The position numbers and the translations under genes were made by a program. 64,000 bases of DNA from Bergeyella sp. (GTDB lineage Bacteria > Bacteroidota > Bacteroidia > Flavobacteriales > Weeksellaceae). How positions within the stretch are numbered: the stretch's first letter is position 1; each line of letters opens with the position of its first letter. The notes under the pieces were generated by a model. That model saw only the letters and a list, made by a program, of their open reading frames with translations, searched no databases and was not told the DNA's origin. Below, in pieces: positions 12,921-31,418 of the stretch. The stretch spans positions 62,001 through 126,000 of the forward strand of contig SZYB01000003.1 in the NCBI GenBank assembly GCA_030263285.1, in the 5' to 3' direction.

Positions 12921-13235
12921 ATGCAGGCGATCATATCAAAAGAAGAGCTGATAAAATTGTACGAAGTAGAAGTATCGTTTTTGGACGCGTTAGAGGAGTC
13001 TGGTCTTGTGGAAATATTGGTTTTAGAGAATAAAGAATATCTTCATTACGACCATCTTCCCGCATTCGAGAAACTGGTAAACTGGCATTATGATTTGGAT
13101 ATCAATATCCCGGGTCTGGAGGTTATCTCACATCTTACAAGAAAAATAGAAGAACTGCAAAAAACACAAAGATCGGCGACGCAATCATCAAAAGAAACGA
13201 ATGATTTTTTTTGTGAGGAGGCAGAATATGTTTAA
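12921..13235 (+). CDS. cbpM: chaperone modulator CbpM
   Basis: 104 residues. CbpM binds the J domain of CbpA and restrains its co-chaperone activity. The N-terminal MerR-like helical part is visible (ISKEELIKLYEVEVSFLDALEESGLVEI), then HYDHLPAFEKLVNWHYDLDINIPGLEVISHLTRKIEELQ, ending in a short coiled coil and a polar tail. Its position 3 bp behind cbpA is the normal pairing. Its last codons overlap possible early starts of the next large gene, so the three may share a transcript. Confidence 0.88.
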   Translation: MQAIISKEELIKLYEVEVSFLDALEESGLVEILVLENKEYLHYDHLPAFEKLVNWHYDLDINIPGLEVISHLTRKIEELQKTQRSATQSSKETNDFFCEEAEYV

Positions 13236-13293
13236 AATCAAGGCGGAGAGTGGTTTTTTTGCTAAATTCGCTCCAAGTATTCAAGGGAGTTTT

Positions 13294-16200
13294 ATGCGGT
13301 TACTCGTTTTTAGGTTACTTGTCTTTGTTTGTGTTCATTTTTCGTTATTCTCTTTTTTTGATGCCCAATCGGGTAGTCCCGCTCCTTTTATCGCTACAGA
13401 CAGCGATGGGAATAAGGAGGCAAATATAGACTGTAAGGCGGTAAATGAGGGAAGAAATTGCTTGTCGTTACAGGTGAACAATCTCCCTGAGTTATATCTT
13501 ACTTCTCAGTACAAAATAGAGTCGATAGCTGATTTTACTGGGGATTCGCCTTATTTACCCTATGATCAGGGGACTACAATAGAAAGCAGGGATAATGACG
13601 ATTATTTTACCAAATCGGTACGCCTTCCTTTTAATTTCTGTTTTTTTAACCAGTCATTTACTTCTATCATAATCAGCCCGAACGGAGTAGTTTCTTTTGA
13701 GGCTTCCCTGGCAGAAAAATTTAATGAGGCAAAGGTAAATCTACAGAATCCCAATCCTAAATTACCAAAGAATTCAATTTTTGGTATTTATCATGACCTG
13801 ATTTTCAATAAGAATAAAGCAGGCAGAATCAAATACCAGGTGGTAGGCAGTGTGCCCAATAGAAAAATGGTGATTAATTTTTATAAGGGAATTTTTGTTG
13901 GTTGTCCTGCAGATACCTCCACTTCACAAATTGTTCTGCACGAAGGGACCAACATTATAGAGATTTTTGTAAAAAATAAGGCAGCGATTTGTAGCACGGC
14001 GAAACATCCCAATAGTCTTCTGGGGATAATGAATGGTAACGGCAGAATAGGGTATACGCCCATGGGGAGGAATACAGGGATATGGGATGCTGGTCCGGAA
14101 GCGTGGAGGTTTTCTCCCACAGGATCTACAGCGGTACGCCCTATGGTAAAATGGACCAGCGATAAAGGAACTGTTCTTTGGGGAGAAAAAGTAAAGGTAT
14201 GTCCTACAAAAACGACTGCTTATACGGCAGAGGTATCCTATGATATATGTGGAATCTATAATTTGGGGAAGGATGAGGTAAAAATTAATGTCCCTTCTCC
14301 GGATCTAAAACTAAAGAAATATTCACAAGAACTATGCGCCGGAGATACAAAAGTAAATTTGGATGACTATAAAAAATGGCTCACGGAAAGAGATCCCAAT
14401 GAATTAGTTTTTTCTTATTTCTTGAGCAAAAGAGAGGCCAAGGCGGGAAGTAATCCGCAGGTTGCTGATCAAATTATAACGGATAATACCATCTGGTATG
14501 TGAGAGTTGCAGAGTCCAAAAATCCTGAATGCTTCAAGATTATTACCCTGGAGTTTAAGATTGTGTCTTTTAGTCTAAAATCAAGTAGTGTAAAGGTCTG
14601 TGCTCCCGTAAAAGGCTCAGTAATTAAGGGTTTTGCTCTTTCACGGTTCAATAACCGGTTTGTAAATAGTGAGGAGATACGTTATTTTCTTACGCTGGAG
14701 GATGCAAATTCGAATATAAATGAAAAGACCAATGCGGATCTCACGGAAAATATGGAGCTATGGGTAAGGGTGAAATCAAAAAACTGCTATTTGGTAAAAG
14801 GTCCGGTAAAAATAATATTCGACAGATCTCCCGAACTTAAGAACAAGGTGGCGGGACTCTGTGCTCCTATCAATGGGAATGTTATAGAAAAATACAAAAC
14901 GCAAGACTTAAATGATCAGTGGGTTAGTGGTTCGGATAAAATAAGATATTTTCTATCTGAGAAAAGCGCCAGGGAAGGAAAAAACGAAATCACAGAAGTA
15001 GATATCACGGAGGAGACACAGCTGTGGGTAAGAGTGCTCACTCCCACTTGCGAGTTTGTAGATGGTCCCGTGACGGTAAAGTTTACGAGATACGAAGTGG
15101 ATGAGAAAGATATCAAAATATGCCGTCCATTGAATTCTGACATTTCCGGTAATTATGCGGTGAAAAATTTTAATTATCGGATAGAAAAAAATGCAACGAG
15201 CATAAAATACTATCGATCAGAAAAAGACGCCAGGGAAGGAGTAAACGAAGTGGAAACGGTGGATCTGGATGTGGTAGATGGGCTTTGGGTAAGAGTTAAT
15301 AACGGAAAATGCGAATATGTAGATGGTCCCATTAAGATAGATATGGTGGATGTGGTTCCGGATTTGAAAACGAAAGAGCCTGCGGTATGTAAACCTTTGA
15401 AAGGAAATACAATTAAAGATTTTGTCCTTGACATTCTAACCCCTCAATTGGTAAAGAGAAACAAAATTGTTTCCTATTATTTGAAAAAAAATGATGCGGT
15501 AAAGGAAATCAATGAGGTTAAAATAATAGAACTTTCAGAAAACACGGAGTTGTGGGTAAGAGTGAAATCGAAAGAAAAAGAATGCGAATATGTGGAGGGA
15601 CCTATTAAGGTGAAATTTGAGGATCCAAAAAAATCTGTGAATAAAGAGTTTAAAATTTGTGTTCCGGTAAACGGAGTAGAGTACAAAGATTATAGACTAA
15701 GTTTGCTCGACGCCCAATTGGGGATTTTTTATGATAAGGTGAGATATTATGCTTCTCAATCCGATGCTGTAGATGATATAAATGAGCTGAAAATAACCAA
15801 TTTATCAGAAAGTACACTGCTCTGGATACGAGTGAAAGAAAGTACCTATTGTGAATATGTAGATGGTCCCATCAAAATAAGATTTACAAATAATAGTCTT
15901 GTTGGTAAATTTGACGTTATCGTATGTGGACCTCGTTCCGGAGATACGGTGAAGGATTACGTATTACGGAATCTGGATATACAACTTGTTTCCGGACAAA
16001 ATCTTAGCTACTATCTCAGTGAGTCTGATGCTCGGATGGGAAAAGATGAGGTACTAAAGGCAGATCTCACAGAAAAAACAAAGCTGTGGGTAAGGTCGAA
16101 ATCCGGAGGGTGTGATTATGTAGATGGGCCCATATCGGTGAAGTTTACTTACGAAAAACTTTATGAAGATAAATTATTAGAGAAAGAACTCTGTGATAAC

Positions 16201-18312
16201 TACAGAACAGGAAAGGTAGGTGTAAACTTGTCGGGTTATAATGCGGAAATTAAAAAACGGCAAGATAATACAGTAAAAAACATTAGTTATCATGAGTCAT
16301 TGGAGGATGCCCAAGCCAATATCAATCCTCAGAATAGTTTGGAAGTAAGTAATGGGCAGACCTTCGTTGTTCGTCTGGAACCTTATGTAGGATGCGCAGG
16401 ATTTATGAGGATTAGGTTCAACCTAAAAGCTCCCCCCAAAATAAAGGAGAAAGTAGAGGCAAATTATGATAGAGTATGTAACAATAACAACACCGGTGTC
16501 GGGGAGGTAGATCTTACGGTGTATGAAAAGGAAATCTATACGGGGGTAGAGAAGGTAACTTTTGAGTATTTCGCTAGATATTCGGAATCCGGAAATAGTT
16601 TTTCCTATCCTGTTAGGAATCCCAAAAATTATTCTACCCGGGGTAACGAGACGGTATATGTAAGAGTTAGGGGAGCATCAGGTTGTGCGGATAAAAGTGA
16701 GTTAAGTATTAACCTTAGCTTCTATCCGGGTATATTCCTCAACAAGGGTATTTTAGAAAAATGTGACAGGAATTTTAATTTTACCCAAGAGTTTTTCTTG
16801 GATGATGTGATTCCTCAGATGTATGATAAAAAAGAAAATAAAAACCCTTTATCTGGCATAGAGGTCACTTATCATAACACGTATCGTGATGCTATTAATA
16901 ACAAAAATGCGATTAAAGACAAGAAAGTAATAGGCTCAGCGGCCAAGATGGTGCTGTGGGCGAGATTTACTCTGAAAGAAAAAGGATGTTATACCGTACA
17001 GTCTGTGGAATTATATTCTTATTTTCCGCCCAAGGCGATTCTCTCTACTATCCCTCTATGTGACGATTCTTTCCGGTATTATTATACCGTAAATCTGCTG
17101 GATTATACTGATAATATGGTGCCGATAGCTAATCCTAAATACAAGTTTTATTTTTATTATACAGAGGAAGATGCTAAGGAAGATAAAAACAGAATCCTCA
17201 CCCCGGAAAAGTTTATTATAAAAAAGAGTGATAAAATTCCCAGGATTTATGTAAGGATAGAGATCATTGGCAATTGTTATGATGTAAACGCGGTAAACAT
17301 TGAGTATAGAGACAGAATAAAACTCAACAGTTCGGGACCGTTTTTGATAGATGATATTTGTGATGAGGGAAATGATGGGAAAGAGATTATTGATATTACC
17401 AGGTTTGAGAAGATTTTGGTCAGCGAGGGAGTTTTTACATACTATACCAGTTTCACGGACCTTCAGGAAAATAAAAATGCAATAGATACCCCGAAGGCTT
17501 TTCTATATGATGAAAATACAATGGATATGCTCTATGTTAGAGTCTCTAAGACAGGTTTTTGTGATAATTATGCAAAATTTAGGGTGAAGCTCAAAGAGTC
17601 TCCGATGTTTGCATTGCCGGATTATTATTTCTGTCCTTACAATGATGGAAGCGTAGAGATAGCTCCCGATCTATCTGCGGTAAAAATTGCTTCTTACGTA
17701 TGGAGGAGTCCTGCCGGTGAAATCATATCTACCGATTCTTATGTGAAACACATTAACAAGGCAGGCGTCTATAGTGTGGAAGTGGTAGGGGAAAATGGAT
17801 GTCCATTTAAAACTACATTTAATGTTCTGCCTTACGAAGTTCCCGTGATAGAACAGTTGATCCCGAACGGGAACTCATTTACGGTAGTCGCTACGGGGAG
17901 TAAGCCGATTGTCTATTCCGTAGACAAAATAAACTGGCAAAAGTCTGGTGTGTTCCCAAATGTTACGGATGAGATTACGACCTTCTATGTTAAATTTGAC
18001 GGGGCTTCTTGTCTGGGTCTTCCGAGGAGGGGTCTTCTCCCCAAGATTTATAATGTTATCACCCCTAATGGGGATGGAGTTAATGATGTATGGCGTCTCA
18101 AAAATCTGGATGTTTTTATGGGGTATAAATCCAGCGTACAGATCTTTGATCGATACTATAAACTGGTTTTCGAAGAGACTTCTGATACCGAGATAGTATG
18201 GGACGGCACGAGTAACAGAAGACCCGTAAATACAGGGACTTATTGGTATATTATTGGTCTTCCGGATGGAAGAAAATACCAGGGGTGGATTTTGGTAAAA
18301 AACAGAAATTAA
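13294..18312 (+). CDS. giant secreted repeat protein with T9SS type B sorting domain
   Basis: About 1,672 residues. A signal peptide (RLLVFRLLVFVCVHFSLFSF, then Asp-Ala-Gln-Ser) sends it through Sec. The C-terminus is a gliding-motility-associated/type B sorting domain: IYNVITPNGDGVNDVWRLKN, QIFDRYYKLVF, then IVWDGTSNRRPVNTGTYWYI and a final Lys-Arg-rich tail, so it should be exported and displayed by the type IX system. After a ~330-residue N-terminal domain with beta-rich character (SIIISPNGVVSFEA), the middle is a long series of Cys-initiated ~80-90-residue modules, six of them strongly alike. Starts at 13201 and 13228 are also open; 13294 puts the signal peptide at the N-terminus. Likely an adhesin or surface filament. 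Confidence 0.88.
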   Translation: MRLLVFRLLVFVCVHFSLFSFFDAQSGSPAPFIATDSDGNKEANIDCKAVNEGRNCLSLQVNNLPELYLTSQYKIESIADFTGDSPYLPYDQGTTIESRDNDDYFTKSVRLPFNFCFFNQSFTSIIISPNGVVSFEASLAEKFNEAKVNLQNPNPKLPKNSIFGIYHDLIFNKNKAGRIKYQVVGSVPNRKMVINFYKGIFVGCPADTSTSQIVLHEGTNIIEIFVKNKAAICSTAKHPNSLLGIMNGNGRIGYTPMGRNTGIWDAGPEAWRFSPTGSTAVRPMVKWTSDKGTVLWGEKVKVCPTKTTAYTAEVSYDICGIYNLGKDEVKINVPSPDLKLKKYSQELCAGDTKVNLDDYKKWLTERDPNELVFSYFLSKREAKAGSNPQVADQIITDNTIWYVRVAESKNPECFKIITLEFKIVSFSLKSSSVKVCAPVKGSVIKGFALSRFNNRFVNSEEIRYFLTLEDANSNINEKTNADLTENMELWVRVKSKNCYLVKGPVKIIFDRSPELKNKVAGLCAPINGNVIEKYKTQDLNDQWVSGSDKIRYFLSEKSAREGKNEITEVDITEETQLWVRVLTPTCEFVDGPVTVKFTRYEVDEKDIKICRPLNSDISGNYAVKNFNYRIEKNATSIKYYRSEKDAREGVNEVETVDLDVVDGLWVRVNNGKCEYVDGPIKIDMVDVVPDLKTKEPAVCKPLKGNTIKDFVLDILTPQLVKRNKIVSYYLKKNDAVKEINEVKIIELSENTELWVRVKSKEKECEYVEGPIKVKFEDPKKSVNKEFKICVPVNGVEYKDYRLSLLDAQLGIFYDKVRYYASQSDAVDDINELKITNLSESTLLWIRVKESTYCEYVDGPIKIRFTNNSLVGKFDVIVCGPRSGDTVKDYVLRNLDIQLVSGQNLSYYLSESDARMGKDEVLKADLTEKTKLWVRSKSGGCDYVDGPISVKFTYEKLYEDKLLEKELCDNYRTGKVGVNLSGYNAEIKKRQDNTVKNISYHESLEDAQANINPQNSLEVSNGQTFVVRLEPYVGCAGFMRIRFNLKAPPKIKEKVEANYDRVCNNNNTGVGEVDLTVYEKEIYTGVEKVTFEYFARYSESGNSFSYPVRNPKNYSTRGNETVYVRVRGASGCADKSELSINLSFYPGIFLNKGILEKCDRNFNFTQEFFLDDVIPQMYDKKENKNPLSGIEVTYHNTYRDAINNKNAIKDKKVIGSAAKMVLWARFTLKEKGCYTVQSVELYSYFPPKAILSTIPLCDDSFRYYYTVNLLDYTDNMVPIANPKYKFYFYYTEEDAKEDKNRILTPEKFIIKKSDKIPRIYVRIEIIGNCYDVNAVNIEYRDRIKLNSSGPFLIDDICDEGNDGKEIIDITRFEKILVSEGVFTYYTSFTDLQENKNAIDTPKAFLYDENTMDMLYVRVSKTGFCDNYAKFRVKLKESPMFALPDYYFCPYNDGSVEIAPDLSAVKIASYVWRSPAGEIISTDSYVKHINKAGVYSVEVVGENGCPFKTTFNVLPYEVPVIEQLIPNGNSFTVVATGSKPIVYSVDKINWQKSGVFPNVTDEITTFYVKFDGASCLGLPRRGLLPKIYNVITPNGDGVNDVWRLKNLDVFMGYKSSVQIFDRYYKLVFEETSDTEIVWDGTSNRRPVNTGTYWYIIGLPDGRKYQGWILVKNRN
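14593..16185 (+). repeat. six tandem ~88-codon modules inside the T9SS protein gene
   Basis: Module starts are at 14593, 14854, 15115, 15382, 15652 and 15919, spaced 261, 261, 267, 270 and 267 nt; the next, diverged module begins at 16186. Each runs from a Cys-x-Pro motif (CAPVKG, CAPING, CRPLNS, CKPLKG, CVPVNG, CGPRSG), through a [Y/F]-[Y/F]-containing strand and a D-A-[R/V/N] element, to E-LWVRV, a second Cys and a [V/I]-[D/E/K]-GP-[I/V]-[K/T/S] ending. Two Cys per module suggest one disulfide each in an Ig-like fold. At least five further, more divergent modules follow. Confidence 0.85.
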
Positions 18313-21287: not shown

Positions 21288-22292
21288 TCAGCGGGTGTAC
21301 CAAAGGCGATCGTTCTTAAGCAAAAGAGGAGTCCTAAAATTATTGGAAAACAAAGCGCCGGTTCCTAGTCCTTGAGGTAGTGTGTTTTTTTTGGTGTATG
21401 TGTATTGACTGAGGGCGTTGAGTCCTATGTTGCTTTCCAGCGCAGAGGTAATCCACCAACCGATATTCATTTTTTCCGCAAGCGCAATCCATTCATTACA
21501 TCCAGAAAACCCGCCTATTAAAGAAGGTTTTAGGATAATATATTGAGGTCGTATGTACTCCAGTACCGCTTTTTTCTCCTTCGGGTAAAACCGACCGATA
21601 AGTTCTTCATCCAGTGCGATGGGAAGAGGAGAATTTTTGCACAGTTTTTTCATTTCGTACTCTCGTTTTGGTTTTATGGGCTGCTCTATAGAGTGGATGT
21701 TGAGTCGAGCAAGTTCTTCCAGAATTTTAGGAGCCTCTTCTATACCGAATGCCCCATTGGCATCCACGCGTATCTCCAGTTGTTCTACAGAATATTTTCT
21801 TCTTATGTGACGGAGTAAGTCTCTTTCTTTATCCCAAAATGCGCCTATTTTCAGTTTTATACAAGTATAGTTTTCTGCTATTTTTTCTTGAATTTGGTTT
21901 TTCATAAAGTCGGGTTCCCCCATCCAGATCAGCCCGTTTATTTTTATGGAATCTTTCGTTTCTGTAAATGCGCTGGGGAAATACAGGTCTTGTCCGTACT
22001 TCATGTTTCTTATTGCTTGCTCATACCCCGTCCAGAGAGAGGGATAAGACCTGAGTTCGTCAGAAATAACGGAGGGGTCAAGAGATATATTTTCGCAAAG
22101 CCAGTCTAATTTTTTTTTGTATTGTACAGGGTCCTCTGCACTTAAGCCTCTGAATAGGGCGCATTCGCCTACCCCTTTTTTCCCTTCGTGTTGGAGGGTC
22201 AGGATAAAGGTTTCTTTTGAGGTGAGAATCTCCCGGGAAGTTTGCGCGGGTTTATAGAAAACTAATCGGTATGGTGTATAATGTGCTTTCAC
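21288..22292 (-). CDS. menC: o-succinylbenzoate synthase
   Basis: 334 residues of the enolase superfamily (muconate-lactonizing subgroup). It dehydrates SHCHC to o-succinylbenzoate in menaquinone synthesis. The metal-binding and acid-base features are visible: CIKLKIGAFWD, the VDANGAFGIEEAPKILEELA segment with the first Asp, IEQPIKP, ALDEELIG, and YIILKPSLIGGFSGCNEW with the second catalytic Lys. The end has WWITSALESNIGLNALSQ. Start is a GTG at 22292, 8 nt behind a promoter. menF and menI lie 29 kb away; other men genes are not in the window. Confidence 0.9.
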   Translation of the reverse strand: MKAHYTPYRLVFYKPAQTSREILTSKETFILTLQHEGKKGVGECALFRGLSAEDPVQYKKKLDWLCENISLDPSVISDELRSYPSLWTGYEQAIRNMKYGQDLYFPSAFTETKDSIKINGLIWMGEPDFMKNQIQEKIAENYTCIKLKIGAFWDKERDLLRHIRRKYSVEQLEIRVDANGAFGIEEAPKILEELARLNIHSIEQPIKPKREYEMKKLCKNSPLPIALDEELIGRFYPKEKKAVLEYIRPQYIILKPSLIGGFSGCNEWIALAEKMNIGWWITSALESNIGLNALSQYTYTKKNTLPQGLGTGALFSNNFRTPLLLKNDRLWYTR

Positions 22293-22375: not shown

Positions 22376-22383
22376 TATATTTG
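22376..22383 (+). promoter_or_regulatory. -7 box for the glycosyltransferase gene/cassette
   Basis: TATATTTG, 34 nt before the ATG at 22418. It probably drives the glycosyltransferase and possibly the downstream acyl cassette. No clear -33 element at normal spacing. Confidence 0.5.
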
Positions 22384-22417: not shown

Positions 22418-23566
22418 ATGTCGCATAAGAAAATATTATTTGTTTATTATCAGAATATAAAACAAAATGGAGTCTCCAAAAGTATTGCTAACATTACCAA
22501 GGAGCTGGTAGAGAAAGATTATGAGGTGACTCTTCTCTTTTTGATGGCAGAACATGCAGATTATTTTCCGATAGACAGCAGAGTAAAAAAAATATATATC
22601 AATTCATTTGATACCCGATATTTCCGGTTTGCAGGAAAGTTAAAGGAAAAATCTATACTCAAAGGAAAATGGAATTCGGCTACCTATTATTTGTACGATT
22701 TGGGGTGTTTTTTCACGTTAAAAAATTGGATCAATGAGAATTACAAAAATTATGATAAAATTATCGCCTGTTGGTATAAGCTTTCCATTTTTCTTTCTTT
22801 TACTCGAGCAGCCTCCAGAACCATAGCTTGGGAGCATACTATTCATAAAACGGGTGGTTTTTTATATTTTGGTTTGTTGAGAAAAAGATATAAGAAATTA
22901 AAAAAAGTGGTTTGTTTGACAGGCGAATCTTTGGCTTTTTATCAATCGAAACAGGTAAAGGCATGCAGAATATCCAATATCATTGGGGATCAGTACGAAA
23001 ATGTTCCCTTTGATTTTGAAAAAAAAGAGGACATTATACTTTTGGTAAGCAGATTGGATCCGGAAAAAAATGTTAAGGAATTTTTAGAAATTGTACATGA
23101 AGCCGGCATCCCCCATAATTGGACTGTAATAATAGCAGGAACGGGGAGCGAGGAAGATCAACTAAAGACCTATGCAAAAGAAGCCGGTCTCTCCGGCGTA
23201 AAATTTTTTGGGGCGGGTACGCAGGAGCAAATGCTGGATTTGTACAAAAAATCCAAAATTTTTTGCATGACTCCTTTGTTGGAGGGTTTGCCCACCACTC
23301 TTATAGAGGCGATGTTTTGCGGAAATGTCCTGATTAGCTATGATTGTCCTACAGGACCGTCTGAAATTGTGAACCCAAAAAACGGATTTCTTATCCCTTT
23401 ACATGATAAAAAAATATTTATAGAAAAACTTACCGGTTTGCTTTCGGATAAAGAATATTTAAAAAAAATGGCAATGGATTCTTACAAGGAGTCTTCCAAA
23501 TGGAAAAAAGATACTATTCTCCCTAAATGGGAAGCTCTCTTAGAAAACGAAGATGAGGGATTATAA
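22418..23566 (+). CDS. glycosyltransferase family 4 protein
   Basis: 382 residues, GT-B fold, retaining-type sugar transferase. The C-terminal donor-binding domain is diagnostic: LVSRLDPEKNVKEFLEIVHE (about 209-228), VIIAGTGSEEDQLKTYA, then VKFFGAGTQEQMLDLYKKS, IFCMTPLLEGLPTTLIEAMF with the EGLP/E-A-M motif, and SYDCPTGPSEIVNPKNGFLI. The N-terminus (KKILFVYYQNIKQNGVSKSI) is the acceptor-side Rossmann strand. No membrane segment. It is 261 bp upstream of the carrier-protein cassette on the same strand. It probably adds a sugar to a lipopolysaccharide or capsule unit; the exact sugar is unknown. Confidence 0.9.
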   Translation: MSHKKILFVYYQNIKQNGVSKSIANITKELVEKDYEVTLLFLMAEHADYFPIDSRVKKIYINSFDTRYFRFAGKLKEKSILKGKWNSATYYLYDLGCFFTLKNWINENYKNYDKIIACWYKLSIFLSFTRAASRTIAWEHTIHKTGGFLYFGLLRKRYKKLKKVVCLTGESLAFYQSKQVKACRISNIIGDQYENVPFDFEKKEDIILLVSRLDPEKNVKEFLEIVHEAGIPHNWTVIIAGTGSEEDQLKTYAKEAGLSGVKFFGAGTQEQMLDLYKKSKIFCMTPLLEGLPTTLIEAMFCGNVLISYDCPTGPSEIVNPKNGFLIPLHDKKIFIEKLTGLLSDKEYLKKMAMDSYKESSKWKKDTILPKWEALLENEDEGL

Positions 23567-23827
23567 AGGGGCCAATATCAAAAAAATAATAAACGGACCC
23601 TTCTGTTGCTCTTCCCCTGTATTTTAAGGCACTGGGAAATGAGAGTTGTTTACCCAAAATGATATTGTACAGCTTGATATAGGTTGCTCGTTTGTAAAAG
23701 ATTGTAATTCAGATTCAAAGGAGTTTTATCCTGCTTTGGAATCGGTGGGTCGCTCTATGTCCGGTTGGGAAAAATTTAATCGGATTATCTTTATTGTTAT
23801 CTTTGCGGGGATATCAAAAAAATATTG

Positions 23828-24130
23828 ATGATAACTAAGGAGAAGATTCAGGGAATTGTGGTTGCCACTCTAAAAGATTTCTTGGACATTAACGGGATTG
23901 AGTTTGAGGGGGATATTACCCCGCAAACGAGACTGATCGGGAGCGGTGGAGTGTTTGATTCTATGGAACTTGTCAATTTTGTGGTGGATCTTGAAGAGAT
24001 TTTGGAGGAGGAATTTGACCAGGAGTTTAGTCTTCAGGACGAAAGAGCCATGTCCAGGAGGCGGAGCCCTTTTATGAATGTCGAAGAGCTCACCTCATTT
24101 ATTTTGGAGTTGAATGAGGAAGGAGAATAA
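23828..24130 (+). CDS. acyl carrier protein-like (phosphopantetheine attachment) protein
   Basis: 100 residues, acidic and helical. The attachment motif is GVFDSMELVNFVVDLEE, with Ser45 in the Asp-Ser-Met/Leu context that accepts a 4'-phosphopantetheine arm. It differs from a fatty-acid ACP: the DITPQTRLIGSGG run before the site and a basic insert (RAMSRRRSPF) after it resemble stand-alone carrier proteins in polysaccharide and secondary-metabolite clusters. Start is ATG 23828, with a TTG just before it. Its last codons overlap the SDR gene by 17 bp, so the two are translationally coupled. It should carry the acyl group handled by the next three enzymes. Confidence 0.85.
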   Translation: MITKEKIQGIVVATLKDFLDINGIEFEGDITPQTRLIGSGGVFDSMELVNFVVDLEEILEEEFDQEFSLQDERAMSRRRSPFMNVEELTSFILELNEEGE

Positions 24131-24818
24131 AAAATATATTTTCATTACGGGTAACCGAAAAGGCATAGGACGTCATCTCACAGAATATTATCTTGGGCAC
24201 GGGCACGGGGTTTTGGGATGCAGTCGCAAAGAGTCTGATTTTGTGCATGAAAACTACCATCATTTCGTTTGTGATATTACCGATGAGAAAGGTGTAAAGC
24301 AAGTCATCCGAAGCGTAAGGAGTGATTTTGGTAAGGTAGATGTCCTTATTAACAATGCGGGGGTCGCCTCTCTTAACCATTCTTTACTCACACCGGGTTC
24401 TACGGTAAAGAAGGTTTTTGAAACCAATTTTTACGGAAGTTTTTATTTTGCGAGAGAGTGCGCAAAGATGATGAGAAACACGGGGGGGAGGATTGTGAAT
24501 TTTTCTACTGTGGCTGTGCCCATGAATTTGGAGGGAGAAATGGTGTATGCTTCCTCAAAAGCGGCTGTTGAAAAAATGACCAAGATTCTGGCCAAAGAAC
24601 TTGCGCCTTTCGATATAACGGTAAATGCGATAGCACCTTCCCCGGTTTATACAGATCTTATAAAAACCGTTCCGGAGGATAAAATACGGGGGTTATTGCA
24701 TAAACAGGCGATCCGGAGGTTGGGTACGTTTGAGGATATTGAAAATGTTTTGGACTTTTTTATCTCAGAAAAAAGCAGTTTTATTACGGGACAGATTATT
24801 TATTTGGGCGGGCTATGA
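24114..24818 (+). CDS. SDR-family oxidoreductase (3-oxoacyl reductase-like)
   Basis: 234 residues, classical short-chain dehydrogenase. The NAD(P)-binding TGNRKGIGRHL is at about 12-22, NNAG is in VDVLINNAGVASLNH, the catalytic Ser is in IVNFSTVAV, and the Tyr-x3-Lys motif is YASSKAAVEK. The C-terminus has the usual NAIAPSPVYTDLI and ITGQIIYLGG. It resembles FabG-type reductases that act on carrier-bound 3-oxoacyl groups, which fits its overlap with a carrier-protein gene. It overlaps the next gene by 4 bp. Reduction of a ketone on the carrier-bound acyl chain is inferred, not shown. Confidence 0.88.
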   Translation: MRKENKKYIFITGNRKGIGRHLTEYYLGHGHGVLGCSRKESDFVHENYHHFVCDITDEKGVKQVIRSVRSDFGKVDVLINNAGVASLNHSLLTPGSTVKKVFETNFYGSFYFARECAKMMRNTGGRIVNFSTVAVPMNLEGEMVYASSKAAVEKMTKILAKELAPFDITVNAIAPSPVYTDLIKTVPEDKIRGLLHKQAIRRLGTFEDIENVLDFFISEKSSFITGQIIYLGGL

Positions 24819-26143
24819 CCATAGAGCAACTGAAAAAATACGAGGGTATTGCGATCATTGAGAAAGATAGGCACTATACCTACGGGGATTTAGGAAAAGA
24901 AATAGATCGTTTTGCAAGGGAGCTTGAAGAAAAAATATTTGATGGTGATGTCGTTTGTATTTATTCGGATTATAGCTTTAAAAGCATTGCACTTTTTCTT
25001 GCATTATCCCAAAATAATAGTAGTATTATTGTTCCTATCGTTCCCACTACAGAAGTCGAATTTACTTCAAAAATAAAAGCCTCTTCCGTAAACAAAATAC
25101 TTTATTTCGAAGGGGAAATGTTATGCATTACTCACCGGCAAAAAGGGGACAGCAAAGCAGAATATCTGAAGATCATCCGAAAAAATCAGTCGGGGCTAGT
25201 CTTTTTTTCAAGCGGAACTACAGGAGAACCCAAAGTGATGGTACACAATTTCAGCAAGTTGCTGAAGGGTTTTTCTATTCCTAAAAAAACGAGAAATTTG
25301 AGATTTTTACTTTTTCTGTTGTTTGACCATATCGGGGGGATTAACACCCTCTTGAGCTGTTTGAATAACGGATCGGCAATTGTGATCCCGGAAAATCGTA
25401 ATCCCGAATATATTTTACAGCTCATAGAGGCAAAAGAAATCCAGATTTTACCCACAAGTCCCACATTTTTGAATCTGATGTTGATGACAGAGCATTTTGG
25501 TAAATATGATTTATCTTCCTTGAAAATGATTACGTATGGAACCGAAAGGATGCCTCAGGCTTTACTCGAAAAATTGAGACTGAAAATTCCGAAAGTAAAA
25601 TTTTTGCAGACTTTCGGAACAAGCGAAACGGGAATTTTGAAAACAGAGAGTAAATCCTCTACTAGTTTATTTTTCAAGATAGTGGATCCCCATTATGAAT
25701 ACAGGATAGAAGAGGGACAACTGTTTTTGAGATCAAACAATCAGGTAAGCGGTTATTTAAATCAAGAAAGTAATCAGTTTACGGCAGAGGGTTGGTTTGC
25801 AACAGGGGATTTGGTAGAAACAGATGATGAGGGATACCTGAAAATAATCGGGAGGATAAACAAAGTGATTAATGTGGGAGGGCAAAAGGTCCTGCCAAAA
25901 GAGATAGAAGACGTAATCAATAAGATTCCCGGGGTCATAGATACTACCGTTTTTTCGAAAGTCAATGCCGTTACGGGACAGATGGTGTGTGCGGAGGTTA
26001 CGGTAACGGGGAGAACAGACAAGAATGAAATAAAAAAAGAAATATGGATGGCTTGTCGTAAAGAATTGGACAAATATAAAGTTCCGAGTAAAATCATCAT
26101 TAAGAATACAATATCCTTTTCCAACCGTTTTAAAAAGCGATAG
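24815..26143 (+). CDS. AMP-binding acyl-CoA/acyl-ACP ligase
   Basis: 442 residues, ANL superfamily adenylating enzyme, somewhat shorter than typical acyl-CoA ligases (about 500). The P-loop is GLVFFSSGTTGEPKVMVHNF, followed by DHIGGINTLLSCLNNGS, LQTFGTSETG (the A5-type motif), WFATGDLVETDDEGYLKIIG and RINKVINVGGQKVLPKEIEDVI (A7/A8). The final catalytic Lys is in the terminal NRFKKR. It would activate a carboxylic acid as the adenylate and load it on CoA or, by context, on the adjacent carrier protein. It starts in the stop codon of the SDR gene (ATGA overlap). Confidence 0.9.
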   Translation: MTIEQLKKYEGIAIIEKDRHYTYGDLGKEIDRFARELEEKIFDGDVVCIYSDYSFKSIALFLALSQNNSSIIVPIVPTTEVEFTSKIKASSVNKILYFEGEMLCITHRQKGDSKAEYLKIIRKNQSGLVFFSSGTTGEPKVMVHNFSKLLKGFSIPKKTRNLRFLLFLLFDHIGGINTLLSCLNNGSAIVIPENRNPEYILQLIEAKEIQILPTSPTFLNLMLMTEHFGKYDLSSLKMITYGTERMPQALLEKLRLKIPKVKFLQTFGTSETGILKTESKSSTSLFFKIVDPHYEYRIEEGQLFLRSNNQVSGYLNQESNQFTAEGWFATGDLVETDDEGYLKIIGRINKVINVGGQKVLPKEIEDVINKIPGVIDTTVFSKVNAVTGQMVCAEVTVTGRTDKNEIKKEIWMACRKELDKYKVPSKIIIKNTISFSNRFKKR

Positions 26144-26145
26144 AG

Positions 26146-26727
26146 ATGAGTTTTTTCTACAGAATACTGCTGAAATTGATGACATTTTGGGATCGCCTTT
26201 ATATGAGAGTATACATAGACGTCTGTAAAAATGAGGGGTTAAAACTAGGGAAAAAGGTAAAGATTTTTGGGCAGGTCGATTTTGGTTCAGAACCCTATTT
26301 AATTGAGATTGGGGACAAAACCCAAATTGCTTCCGGAACCCGTTTTGTAAATCATGGAGGCACTACGATGACCCTAAGAAGGCTAAAGGGTTTTTCCGAT
26401 GTCAGAATTTTCGGAAGGATAAGGATAGGCAAAAACTGTACTATAGGTTCCAACTGTATTATTCAACAGAATGTGGAGGTAGGGAATAATTGTATATTGG
26501 GAGCAGGTTCAGTACTTACACATTCTATGCCGGACAACTCCGTGTTTTCTGGAAATCCGGCGCGTTTTGTTTGTTCTGTGGAACAATATGCAGAGTCCAT
26601 TTCAGAAAAAAACACCGAGTATCCGAGAGCATTGGAGAAAGATAGAAGGCTGCTGAAAAAATGGCTGAAAGAAAATCTTCCTCATGAATATAAAGCGACA
26701 AAATCATACAGGCGGAAGCAAGAGTAA
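26146..26727 (+). CDS. hexapeptide-repeat (LbH) acyltransferase
   Basis: 193 residues with a left-handed beta-helix: repeated [I/L/V]-G-x4 turns in LIEIGDKTQIASGTRFV, RIRIGKNCTIGSNCIIQQNV and VEVGNNCILGAGSVLTHSMP, ending in the SVFSGNPARFV signature of maltose/galactoside O-acetyltransferase relatives. The catalytic His is likely in FVNHGGTT. A charged C-terminal tail follows. It is 2 bp behind the ligase and is the natural final enzyme of the cassette, moving an acyl group from the carrier protein or CoA onto a sugar. The acceptor is unknown. Confidence 0.88.
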   Translation: MSFFYRILLKLMTFWDRLYMRVYIDVCKNEGLKLGKKVKIFGQVDFGSEPYLIEIGDKTQIASGTRFVNHGGTTMTLRRLKGFSDVRIFGRIRIGKNCTIGSNCIIQQNVEVGNNCILGAGSVLTHSMPDNSVFSGNPARFVCSVEQYAESISEKNTEYPRALEKDRRLLKKWLKENLPHEYKATKSYRRKQE

Positions 26728-29543: not shown

Positions 29544-31418
29544 ATGAGTCTTTTTTCCAAGCAAGATATTATAGATGTGGCGGGTCTGTCTGAGTGGGGT
29601 TTTTTGAGGGGGATTGTTGCCTCTGCCGTGATGAGGCTTTTGGGACTGGAGAAGGTAAACTTGCTCTACGATAAGCTAAAAGACAAGAAAGGAAAGTCAT
29701 TTTTTGATTCCTTTGTGAGGGAAAGGTCAATCGGGTATGTTATTTTTGAGGAGGATATAAAAAAAATCCCGAGGTCGGGTCCCTTTATTTTGGTGTCGAA
29801 TCACCCACTGGGTGCAATAGACGGAATTTTAATGTGTAAAATCCTCACGGAGGTGCGTCCGGATTTTAAGATTATGGGCAATTTTTTGCTGGAAAAAATA
29901 AAACCTATGGAGCCTTATGTTTTATCGGTAAATCCCTTTGAAGGAAAACGAAAAAACGTCAGACCTAGTGCTAGAGGGGTGCTTGAGACCCTCAGGCATC
30001 TGGAGAAGGGGGGGGGTGTGGGTATTTTTCCGTCGGGGGAGGTTTCCAATAAAAACAATGCAGAGGGAGAGATACGGGACAAAACCTGGGAAGTTCCTAT
30101 TCTTAAGCTTATAAGAAAGTCCAGGGTGCCGGTAGTCCCCATGTACATTCATGCGAAAAACAGTTCGTTTTTTTATCAGATGGCAAGGCTCCATCCCGAT
30201 TTACAAACGTTGCTTCTTCCCTCCGAGATGATGAGAACGCGTCACTCTCCTATAAAAATAAGAATTGGAAGAGCGCTGAGTGTAAAGCAGATGGATGAAC
30301 AGGAAAGTGTGGAAGATTTGGGGACTTTTCTCCAGAATAAGGTCTATATGCTAAAATCATATTACGAAAAAAGAAAGTCGCTTGCCAAAATACTCAATCT
30401 TAGAGACCTAAAGCAAAATTTTTCTATTGCAAAGGAGGAGAATATTGTGACCAATATCATAGAAGAAACTCCTAAGGAGGATCTGAAAAAGGATGTTGCT
30501 CGGTTGAGAAGTATGGATAAGTTATTGTTTTCCAATGGAAATTATGAGGTATATTTTTCTACTTATGATGAGATTCCCTCCGTGATGAGGGAGATTGGGA
30601 GGCAAAGAGAGCTTACCTTCCGGGCGGTGGGAGAGGGGAGTAATCTGCCTTTTGATCTGGATCGGTATGATAAACATTATCACCATCTTTTTCTCTGGGA
30701 TAATGAAGGAGAGAATCTGGTGGGAGCCTACAGAATGGCGTTGGGTAAAGAGGTGATGAAACGCCACGGGATAGAGGGGTTTTATACTGCTTCTCTTTTT
30801 GATTTTGATGTTGAGCTTCGCCCTTTTTTCAGGAAGGTGATAGAGATGGGGAGAGCTTACATCACAGAAGAATACCAACAAAAACCTTTGCCTCTGTTTC
30901 TACTTTGGAGAGGGATTGTGCACGTGTGTCTGAGGAATCCGGATCATAAGTTTTTAATGGGAGGGGTAAGTATCAGTAATAAGTTTTCCGATTTTTCAAA
31001 ATCGCTTATGATAGAGTTTATGCGTTCAAATTATTATGACGCCGCCGTAGCCCAGTACGTACATCCCAAAAATGAGTTTAAGGTAAGGTTGAGCGACAGA
31101 GATAAGAGTTTGTTTTTTGATCAGGTAGAATCCGATGTGAACAAATTAGATAAGATAATAGATGACCTGGAGCCGGATATGAGAATGCCGGTACTAATTA
31201 AAAAATATATAAAGCAAAATGCAAAGGTTATTTCCTTTAACGTGGATCCCAGTTTTAACGATGCTATAGACGGGCTTATGTATATTCGTATTAGCGAGCT
31301 TCCGGAGGGCACGATAAAGCCTGTCCTGGATGAGATAAGCGATCAGATACAGAGAGAACAGGCGACAGAAACGAAACAAGGGTCAGACAAAAAAATACGG
31401 CAGAAAAAACTTGCATAG
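29544..31418 (+). CDS. OlsF-like bifunctional aminolipid acyltransferase (PlsC-like + GNAT fusion)
   Basis: 624 residues with two catalytic parts. The N-terminal ~280 residues are a lysophospholipid-acyltransferase (PlsC-like) domain with His87 and Asp93 in ILVSNHPLGAIDGIL and the glycine-rich VGIFPSGEVSNKN motif. The C-terminal part, from about 325 to 550, is a GNAT/OlsB-like N-acyltransferase (EVYFSTYDEIPSVMREIGRQ, NLVGAYRMALG, FFRKVIEMGRAYI). This is the arrangement of OlsF from Serratia and Flavobacterium, where one protein N-acylates and O-acylates ornithine; separate GlsB and GlsA do the same for glycine lipids in Bacteroides. The amino acid used here cannot be read from sequence. Confidence 0.85.
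   Translation: MSLFSKQDIIDVAGLSEWGFLRGIVASAVMRLLGLEKVNLLYDKLKDKKGKSFFDSFVRERSIGYVIFEEDIKKIPRSGPFILVSNHPLGAIDGILMCKILTEVRPDFKIMGNFLLEKIKPMEPYVLSVNPFEGKRKNVRPSARGVLETLRHLEKGGGVGIFPSGEVSNKNNAEGEIRDKTWEVPILKLIRKSRVPVVPMYIHAKNSSFFYQMARLHPDLQTLLLPSEMMRTRHSPIKIRIGRALSVKQMDEQESVEDLGTFLQNKVYMLKSYYEKRKSLAKILNLRDLKQNFSIAKEENIVTNIIEETPKEDLKKDVARLRSMDKLLFSNGNYEVYFSTYDEIPSVMREIGRQRELTFRAVGEGSNLPFDLDRYDKHYHHLFLWDNEGENLVGAYRMALGKEVMKRHGIEGFYTASLFDFDVELRPFFRKVIEMGRAYITEEYQQKPLPLFLLWRGIVHVCLRNPDHKFLMGGVSISNKFSDFSKSLMIEFMRSNYYDAAVAQYVHPKNEFKVRLSDRDKSLFFDQVESDVNKLDKIIDDLEPDMRMPVLIKKYIKQNAKVISFNVDPSFNDAIDGLMYIRISELPEGTIKPVLDEISDQIQREQATETKQGSDKKIRQKKLA

Follow-up and report, generated by a model that had tools for sequence, protein, structure and literature searches.

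Carrier-based acylation of glycans is already established in two bacteria. In Flavobacterium psychrophilum, the R-group genes wfpC-G provide the 3,5-dihydroxyhexanoyl group on Qui2NAc4N, and these genes alter the antigenicity of the lipopolysaccharide (PMC6519341). In Vibrio cholerae O1, the ANL ligase RfbL (WbeL) loads 2,4-dihydroxybutanoate, putatively onto the carrier RfbK (PMC12208996, PMC3441752), and the loss of this ligase alters the O antigen and the sensitivity to phage ICP1 (PMC3441752). Hydroxyacyl groups also start two antibiotics: MupQ, MupS and MacpD convert malonyl-coenzyme A (malonyl-CoA) to 3-hydroxypropionyl-acyl carrier protein (ACP) for mupirocin, and the thiomarinol starter is 4-hydroxybutanoyl (PMC10098928). 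Here we describe a four-gene set from Bergeyella sp. that, judging from its sequence, probably serves as a hydroxyacyl donor cassette dedicated to a glycan, and that would link glycan decoration to the starter chemistry of mupirocin and thiomarinol. It lies in a stretch of 64,000 nucleotides (contig SZYB01000003.1, positions 62,001 to 126,000 of the forward strand), which as a whole is called the window below, and it encodes a carrier protein, a short-chain dehydrogenase/reductase (SDR), an ANL adenylate-forming ligase and a left-handed beta-helix (LbH, hexapeptide) acyltransferase. Acyl decorations of this sort matter because they can decide the antigenicity of bacterial glycans.

The F. psychrophilum system resembles the window set in serving a Bacteroidota O-polysaccharide with a hydroxyacyl group on a dedicated carrier, a reductase and an LbH acyltransferase; it differs in that two ketosynthases (wfpC and wfpE) replace the ligase and in that its cluster holds a PglD-type N-acyltransferase (PMC6519341). 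Ketosynthases of the wfp type were looked for in the window cassette, and none was found. The V. cholerae pair is likened to the window set by description: there too a dedicated carrier and an ANL ligase supply a hydroxy acid to an O-antigen sugar, although the acid is the dihydroxybutanoate mentioned above. The other tetronate genes of V. cholerae O1 encode different enzymes. A literature search found no description of the carrier-SDR-ligase-LbH set, which is weak evidence of novelty, as subscription journals were mostly outside its scope.

The genes are tightly packed on the forward strand. The carrier (100 aa, 23828-24130, with an ATG start and an in-frame TTG at 23825) overlaps the SDR (234 aa, 24114-24818) by 17 bp, the SDR overlaps the ligase (442 aa, 24815-26143) by 4 bp, and the LbH acyltransferase (193 aa, 26146-26727) follows after 2 bp; a family 4 glycosyltransferase (GT4; 382 aa, 22418-23566) lies 261 bp 5' of the carrier. 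All five open reading frames (ORFs) are intact. These spacings are exactly those given in an initial annotation of the DNA, and Pfam and NCBIfam agree with its naming of the GT4, the SDR, the ANL ligase (AMP-binding and AMP-binding_C) and the LbH enzyme (hexapeptide repeats).

The same four genes occur in the same order in seven of 321 genomes of the family, representing four genera and including Cruoricaptor ignavus DSM 25479. Identities between the window proteins and those of the six other cassettes are 54-64% for the carrier, 75-79% for the SDR, 65-68% for the ligase and 70-75% for the LbH enzyme, and this recurrence in six other genomes far exceeds chance. A homologous GT4 adjoins the cassette in all six cases with a readable flank (42-44% identity in the five other genomes); it is codirectional with the carrier in the window and divergent from it in those five. 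Five of the six relatives have the cassette inside a conserved surface-glycan locus with GT2s, GT4s, a methyltransferase and a WcaB-like LbH protein, and in one of them also an MBOAT O-acyltransferase. Because of this setting, the reading of the cassette as a glycan-decorating system is well supported. The annotation had proposed a coherent system tied to a surface glycan and a search for shared gene order as the check on it; the order was found, and the proposal stands with it. Its suggestion of an aminosugar acceptor fares less well, since no aminotransferase adjoins the cassette and the window LbH is not of the PglD type. We do not claim that the conserved glycan locus is a protein O-glycosylation locus of the LFG type; the part that was read starts by a Kdo transferase and ABC transporter genes, in place of the metG and wzx reported for LFG loci (PMC12871550).

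An alternative is that the cassette makes a small molecule or a membrane lipid, such as a polyketide starter or a lipoamino acid, and that its glycan neighbors are incidental. Relatives of the ligase do start polyketides on Pseudoalteromonas, Bradyrhizobium and Burkholderia plasmids, and an enzyme resembling OlsF/Gls lipid synthases is encoded 2.8 kb downstream in the window. We nevertheless regard this alternative as improbable, given the conserved GT4 neighbor, the lack of any ketosynthase or polyketide synthase (PKS) near the cassette in the window and its six relatives, and the finding, described next, that most of the sampled family genomes have the LbH family at a single slot of a glycan locus. 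The lipid enzyme itself (624 aa, 29544-31418) is like the bifunctional ornithine-lipid synthase OlsF and the glycine-lipid enzymes GlsB-GlsA, and scores 399 bits against an OlsF cut-off of 620.

Of the 321 family genomes, 215 encode a member of the LbH family. We read 77 of its loci, 60 of which were fetched for a survey as the best 20 matches plus 40 lower-ranked ones, so that the sample is not random. The slot lies between two conserved GT4 genes and is shared by several acyl modules: seven loci have the carrier-SDR-ligase set (hereafter, the load type), 32 have a beta-ketoacyl-ACP synthase III (KAS III) with an ACP and an SDR (the build type), four have a 480-aa ANL ligase with a GNAT protein and a 76-aa ACP, five have a KAS alone or with an ACP and no SDR, and 29 have no recognizable module. 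One branch of the LbH tree (support 100/97) divides these loci, with a full carrier module in 43 of the 45 rows on one side (seven load, 32 build and four ligase-GNAT-ACP) and in none of the 32 on the other. A Fisher test gives p 1e-19 but ignores shared descent, and the tree is the better statement. The seven load-type LbHs form a single clade (99/98), and GT4s of the window type occur on the carrier side alone.

The same division can be seen in a short motif around a histidine that is invariant in 16 sequences (His70 in the window protein, which scores 45.7 bits for hexapeptide repeats against a Pfam cut-off of 27). All 39 load and build loci have NHxGT(T/A) there, the four ligase-GNAT loci have THSG, and the others mostly have NHDGAMY or NHGGDxR; the window protein has NHGGTT (residues 69-74, 26350-26367), which is typical of the LbHs with carrier modules. 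We infer that a carrier supplies the acyl group to the LbHs on the carrier side, and that those on the other side probably use acetyl-CoA. If so, the LbH motif alone (NHxGTT, THSG or NHDGAMY) should predict carrier use, and the module beside this single slot (load, build, ligase-GNAT or none) should predict the acyl group of the glycan, a rule that can be tested. With regard to the ligase-GNAT-ACP module and its THSG enzyme, the acyl group is perhaps an amino acid, possibly N-acetylated.

The build modules thus share with the window set the LbH family, the site between the two GT4 genes, and the presence of a carrier and an SDR. They differ in that KAS III builds the chain instead of a ligase loading it and in that their carriers and SDRs come from other subfamilies: SDRs of the two types are only distantly related (25-28% identity), and a profile comparison of the two carrier types gave a probability of 6.7%, too weak to count. 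That both modules have a carrier and an SDR argues for a reduced (hydroxy) acyl donor.

As for the carrier, the annotation had proposed a stand-alone protein with a phosphopantetheine site at Ser45 (D-S-M; codon at 23960-23962). The window carrier alone has no significant match to a Pfam or NCBIfam family and does not reach the PP-binding cut-off. However, 15 homologues drawn from across the phylum all keep Ser45, in register with known carriers; a profile of the 15 run against 5163 ORFs found mostly known carrier proteins as its best matches outside the family (E 0.002-0.4); and the weak NCBIfam matches of the homologues are mainly carrier models, with DltC in 11 of the 15. On these three grounds we accept the protein as a carrier. 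Pfam PP-binding is also matched weakly by five of the 15 relatives (best E 0.037), and the genome encodes an ACPS-type phosphopantetheinyl transferase. AlphaFold models of the carrier and ligase, made from two-row alignments, had predicted local distance difference test (pLDDT) values of 66 and 39, too poor for reading a pocket, and a fold search with this poor carrier model gave no match.

The ligase provides the link to antibiotic starter units. Its best plasmid matches include the thiomarinol plasmid pTML1, on which a ligase, an SDR and an ACP precede a 750-aa ketosynthase protein; the window and pTML1 ligases are 36% identical over 435 aa. In the ligase tree, the ligases of the carrier-SDR-ligase triads and those that prime PKSs form one clade (SH-like approximate likelihood ratio test 95) with the pTML1 ligase nested inside it, the pTML1 enzyme being the only starter-unit ligase with which membership was tested. 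All 17 triad and PKS-priming ligases, pTML1 included, have DHIGG at A4 and R(F/Y/L)K at the C-terminus, and none of 54 other ANL ligases does; the latter usually carry GK where the clade has R(F/Y/L)K. In the window ligase, the first signature is at residues 171-175 (25325-25339) and the second, RFKK, stands at residues 438-441 (26126-26137) in place of the usual A10 GK motif. Bradyrhizobium and Burkholderia plasmids also have a ligase, an SDR and a carrier 5' of a large PKS-like protein. These two plasmid cassettes appear to belong to polyketide clusters with a probable hydroxyacyl starter, and the Bradyrhizobium one is accompanied by a phosphopantetheinyl transferase.

Since menC is a neighbor (21288-22292), one could ask if the ligase is simply the o-succinylbenzoate-CoA ligase (MenE) of this genome. 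Indeed, menE is among its top NCBIfam matches, at 150 bits against a cut-off of 330. This low score, together with a separate 337-aa MenE-like protein elsewhere in the genome whose best NCBIfam matches are menE models, led us to reject the idea, and the ligases of the relatives are not beside men genes; we assign it next to no probability.

The window set thus resembles that of mupirocin and thiomarinol in the clade of its ligase and both signatures (compared with pTML1), in encoding a ligase, an SDR and a dedicated carrier together, and in its expected hydroxyacyl-carrier product. It differs in that its SDR is not orthologous, its carrier is divergent, its gene order is reversed, and its product would go to an LbH enzyme and a glycan, not to a ketosynthase and a polyketide. 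Because the SDR is not orthologous and no ketosynthase of the MmpF/TmpF type lies beside the cassette in the window or its six relatives, we do not, on these comparisons, count the set as a member of the mupirocin cassette family.

The SDR (N105-T132-Y145-K149) is probably an NADPH enzyme. The annotation had called it FabG-like, and its best NCBIfam scores are indeed with FabG models, yet it reaches 151 bits against the FabG cut-off of 298, has Thr at the position of the catalytic Ser, and belongs to a group of window-type SDRs of its own (support 98 in the SDR tree), so the name does not hold in the specific sense.

The genes, their order and conservation, the glycan setting, the division of the LbHs and the clade of the ligase come from the sequence, and from them we infer each catalytic step as well as the role of the GT4 and the identities of the acyl group and the sugar. 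The ligase would adenylate a carboxylic acid and load it onto the phosphopantetheine arm on Ser45 of the dedicated carrier, the SDR would reduce the carrier-bound acid to a short hydroxyacyl group, and the LbH enzyme would transfer this group directly from the carrier to a sugar, either a nucleotide sugar or a lipid-linked glycan, on the cytosolic side. The neighboring GT4 most likely adds the acylated sugar or extends the glycan with it.

The most likely chemistry is that of mupirocin and thiomarinol, a proposal that is made by analogy and that we hold with somewhat less than even confidence. A dicarboxylyl-CoA (malonyl- or succinyl-CoA) would be joined to the carrier by its free carboxyl, and the CoA thioester end would then be reduced, giving 3-hydroxypropionyl- or 4-hydroxybutyryl-carrier. 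A bis-thioester intermediate is reportedly described by Walker et al. 2020 (ACS Chem Biol 15:494). The annotation had regarded the uptake of a ready-made acyl chain as a necessity. However, the ligase groups with the thiomarinol starter ligase and the mupirocin counterparts use malonyl-CoA, which makes a dicarboxylyl-CoA no less likely as the source. The reductive formation of a short omega-hydroxyacyl-carrier would also be the most economical chemistry, and would have no need for a ready-made acid.

Two other chemistries have to be weighed against it. In one, the carrier would receive a free 3-oxo acid, for example acetoacetate, from the ligase; the SDR, working like FabG, would then reduce its keto group and so offer 3-hydroxybutyryl-carrier to the LbH enzyme. 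This would suit the best, if sub-cut-off, scores of the SDR, the build modules at the same slot, in which standard KAS III chemistry gives a 3-oxoacyl and then a 3-hydroxyacyl group, and a Rhizobium relative that pairs the triad with a chloramphenicol-type halogenase. The suggested substrate of that halogenase family is a carrier-bound beta-keto acyl group. Yet free 3-oxo acids are scarce and unstable, the load and build SDRs share little identity, and the clade of the ligase holds the thiomarinol starter enzyme, whose mupirocin equivalent uses malonyl-CoA (PMC10098928); we consider this chemistry unlikely. In the other, to which we give a little less credence still, the ligase loads a ready-made (hydroxy) acid from metabolism, and the SDR either works at a stage before loading or oxidizes or reduces a hydroxyl or keto group on the sugar. 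The V. cholerae RfbL provides a precedent (PMC12208996, PMC3441752), and SDRs that act on sugars are common. However, the SDR lies between the carrier and ligase in every triad of the window type, usually with overlapping genes, and the triad recurs beside PglD-like and AAC(3)-like acceptor enzymes; this position and these varied acceptors fit a carrier-bound substrate better than a sugar.

Several points weigh against the proposed donor cassette and its dicarboxylyl-CoA chemistry. The window SDR and the pTML1 SDR are 27% identical and fall in separate groups, so that homology does not allow the reductive step to be carried over. The two carriers are also divergent. In a comparison aimed at carriers of the MacpD/TacpD kind, the pTML1 carrier is matched by profile at E 0.02, and the window carrier has no long C-terminal extension. 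The proposed donor of the LbH enzyme, acyl-ACP in place of acetyl-CoA, is drawn from the tree only. Finally, the cassette is outside the main glycan locus in both the window genome and Cruoricaptor. In the latter it is at a second site beside two further glycosyltransferases; in the former it stands as an island flanked by menC and fbp, and the copy of the glycan locus in that genome, beside Kdo transferase and ABC transporter genes, has only 82 bp at the LbH slot.

Outside the family, the window type of carrier occurs in 21 of 394 other genomes of the class and six of 394 other genomes of the phylum. The carrier-SDR-ligase order is kept in six of these loci that were read (SDR 39-60% and ligase 38-49% identity), and the neighboring acceptor enzymes vary: one locus, for example, has a PglD-type LbH, and another has an acyltransferase of the AAC(3) type. 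The Rhizobium plasmid pT136b combines this carrier, SDR and ligase with a different LbH, a CmlS-type flavin halogenase and GNAT-like proteins; its acyl group is possibly halogenated. The triad is older than the family of the window and, because it adjoins different acceptor enzymes, is by its distribution a portable supply unit that is not bound to one transferase. A wider view, possible but on balance doubtful, is that the starter-unit mechanism of polyketides serves across the Bacteroidota and some Proteobacteria as a portable, glycan-decorating omega-hydroxyacyl module, whose place at a fixed slot can be taken by a ketosynthase-based module supplying the same family of acyltransferases. If true, omega-hydroxyacyl groups such as 3-hydroxypropionyl or 4-hydroxybutyryl would be present on surface glycans.

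A second, more distant set, present in glycan loci of the window's taxonomic order, runs carrier-ligase-SDR and in some cases includes an LbH; in the trees, the triad clade is sister to its ligases, and the pTML1 SDR to its SDRs. The window genome itself (1.68 Mb) has a second glycan locus on contig 23 (378-396 kb) with two FdtA/WxcM-like cupins, an FdtB-like aminotransferase, a PglD-type LbH, a 75-aa carrier and a KAS III. This locus looks like a build-type acyl module similar to that of F. psychrophilum, and so two acyl-decoration systems seem to be present in the genome.

Two candidate Bacteroidota -7 promoter elements are on the forward strand, TATATTTG (22376-22383, 34 bp 5' of the GT4 ATG) and TATCTTTG (23798-23805), upstream of the carrier start, for the four-gene operon. 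By count alone, the motif occurs in the window about as often as chance would give (81 against an expected 72), and TAnnTTTG is 13-22 bp 5' of the carrier start in all six loci compared. The GC composition gives no strong sign of foreign origin (GT4 0.351, carrier 0.436, window genes 0.396 +/- 0.027). Elsewhere in the window, a 1703-aa protein (13201-18312) with a gliding-type C-terminus contains numerous imperfect copies of a repeat, CxP..G...KDY.L..L..QLV....YYLS..DA..G.NEV.

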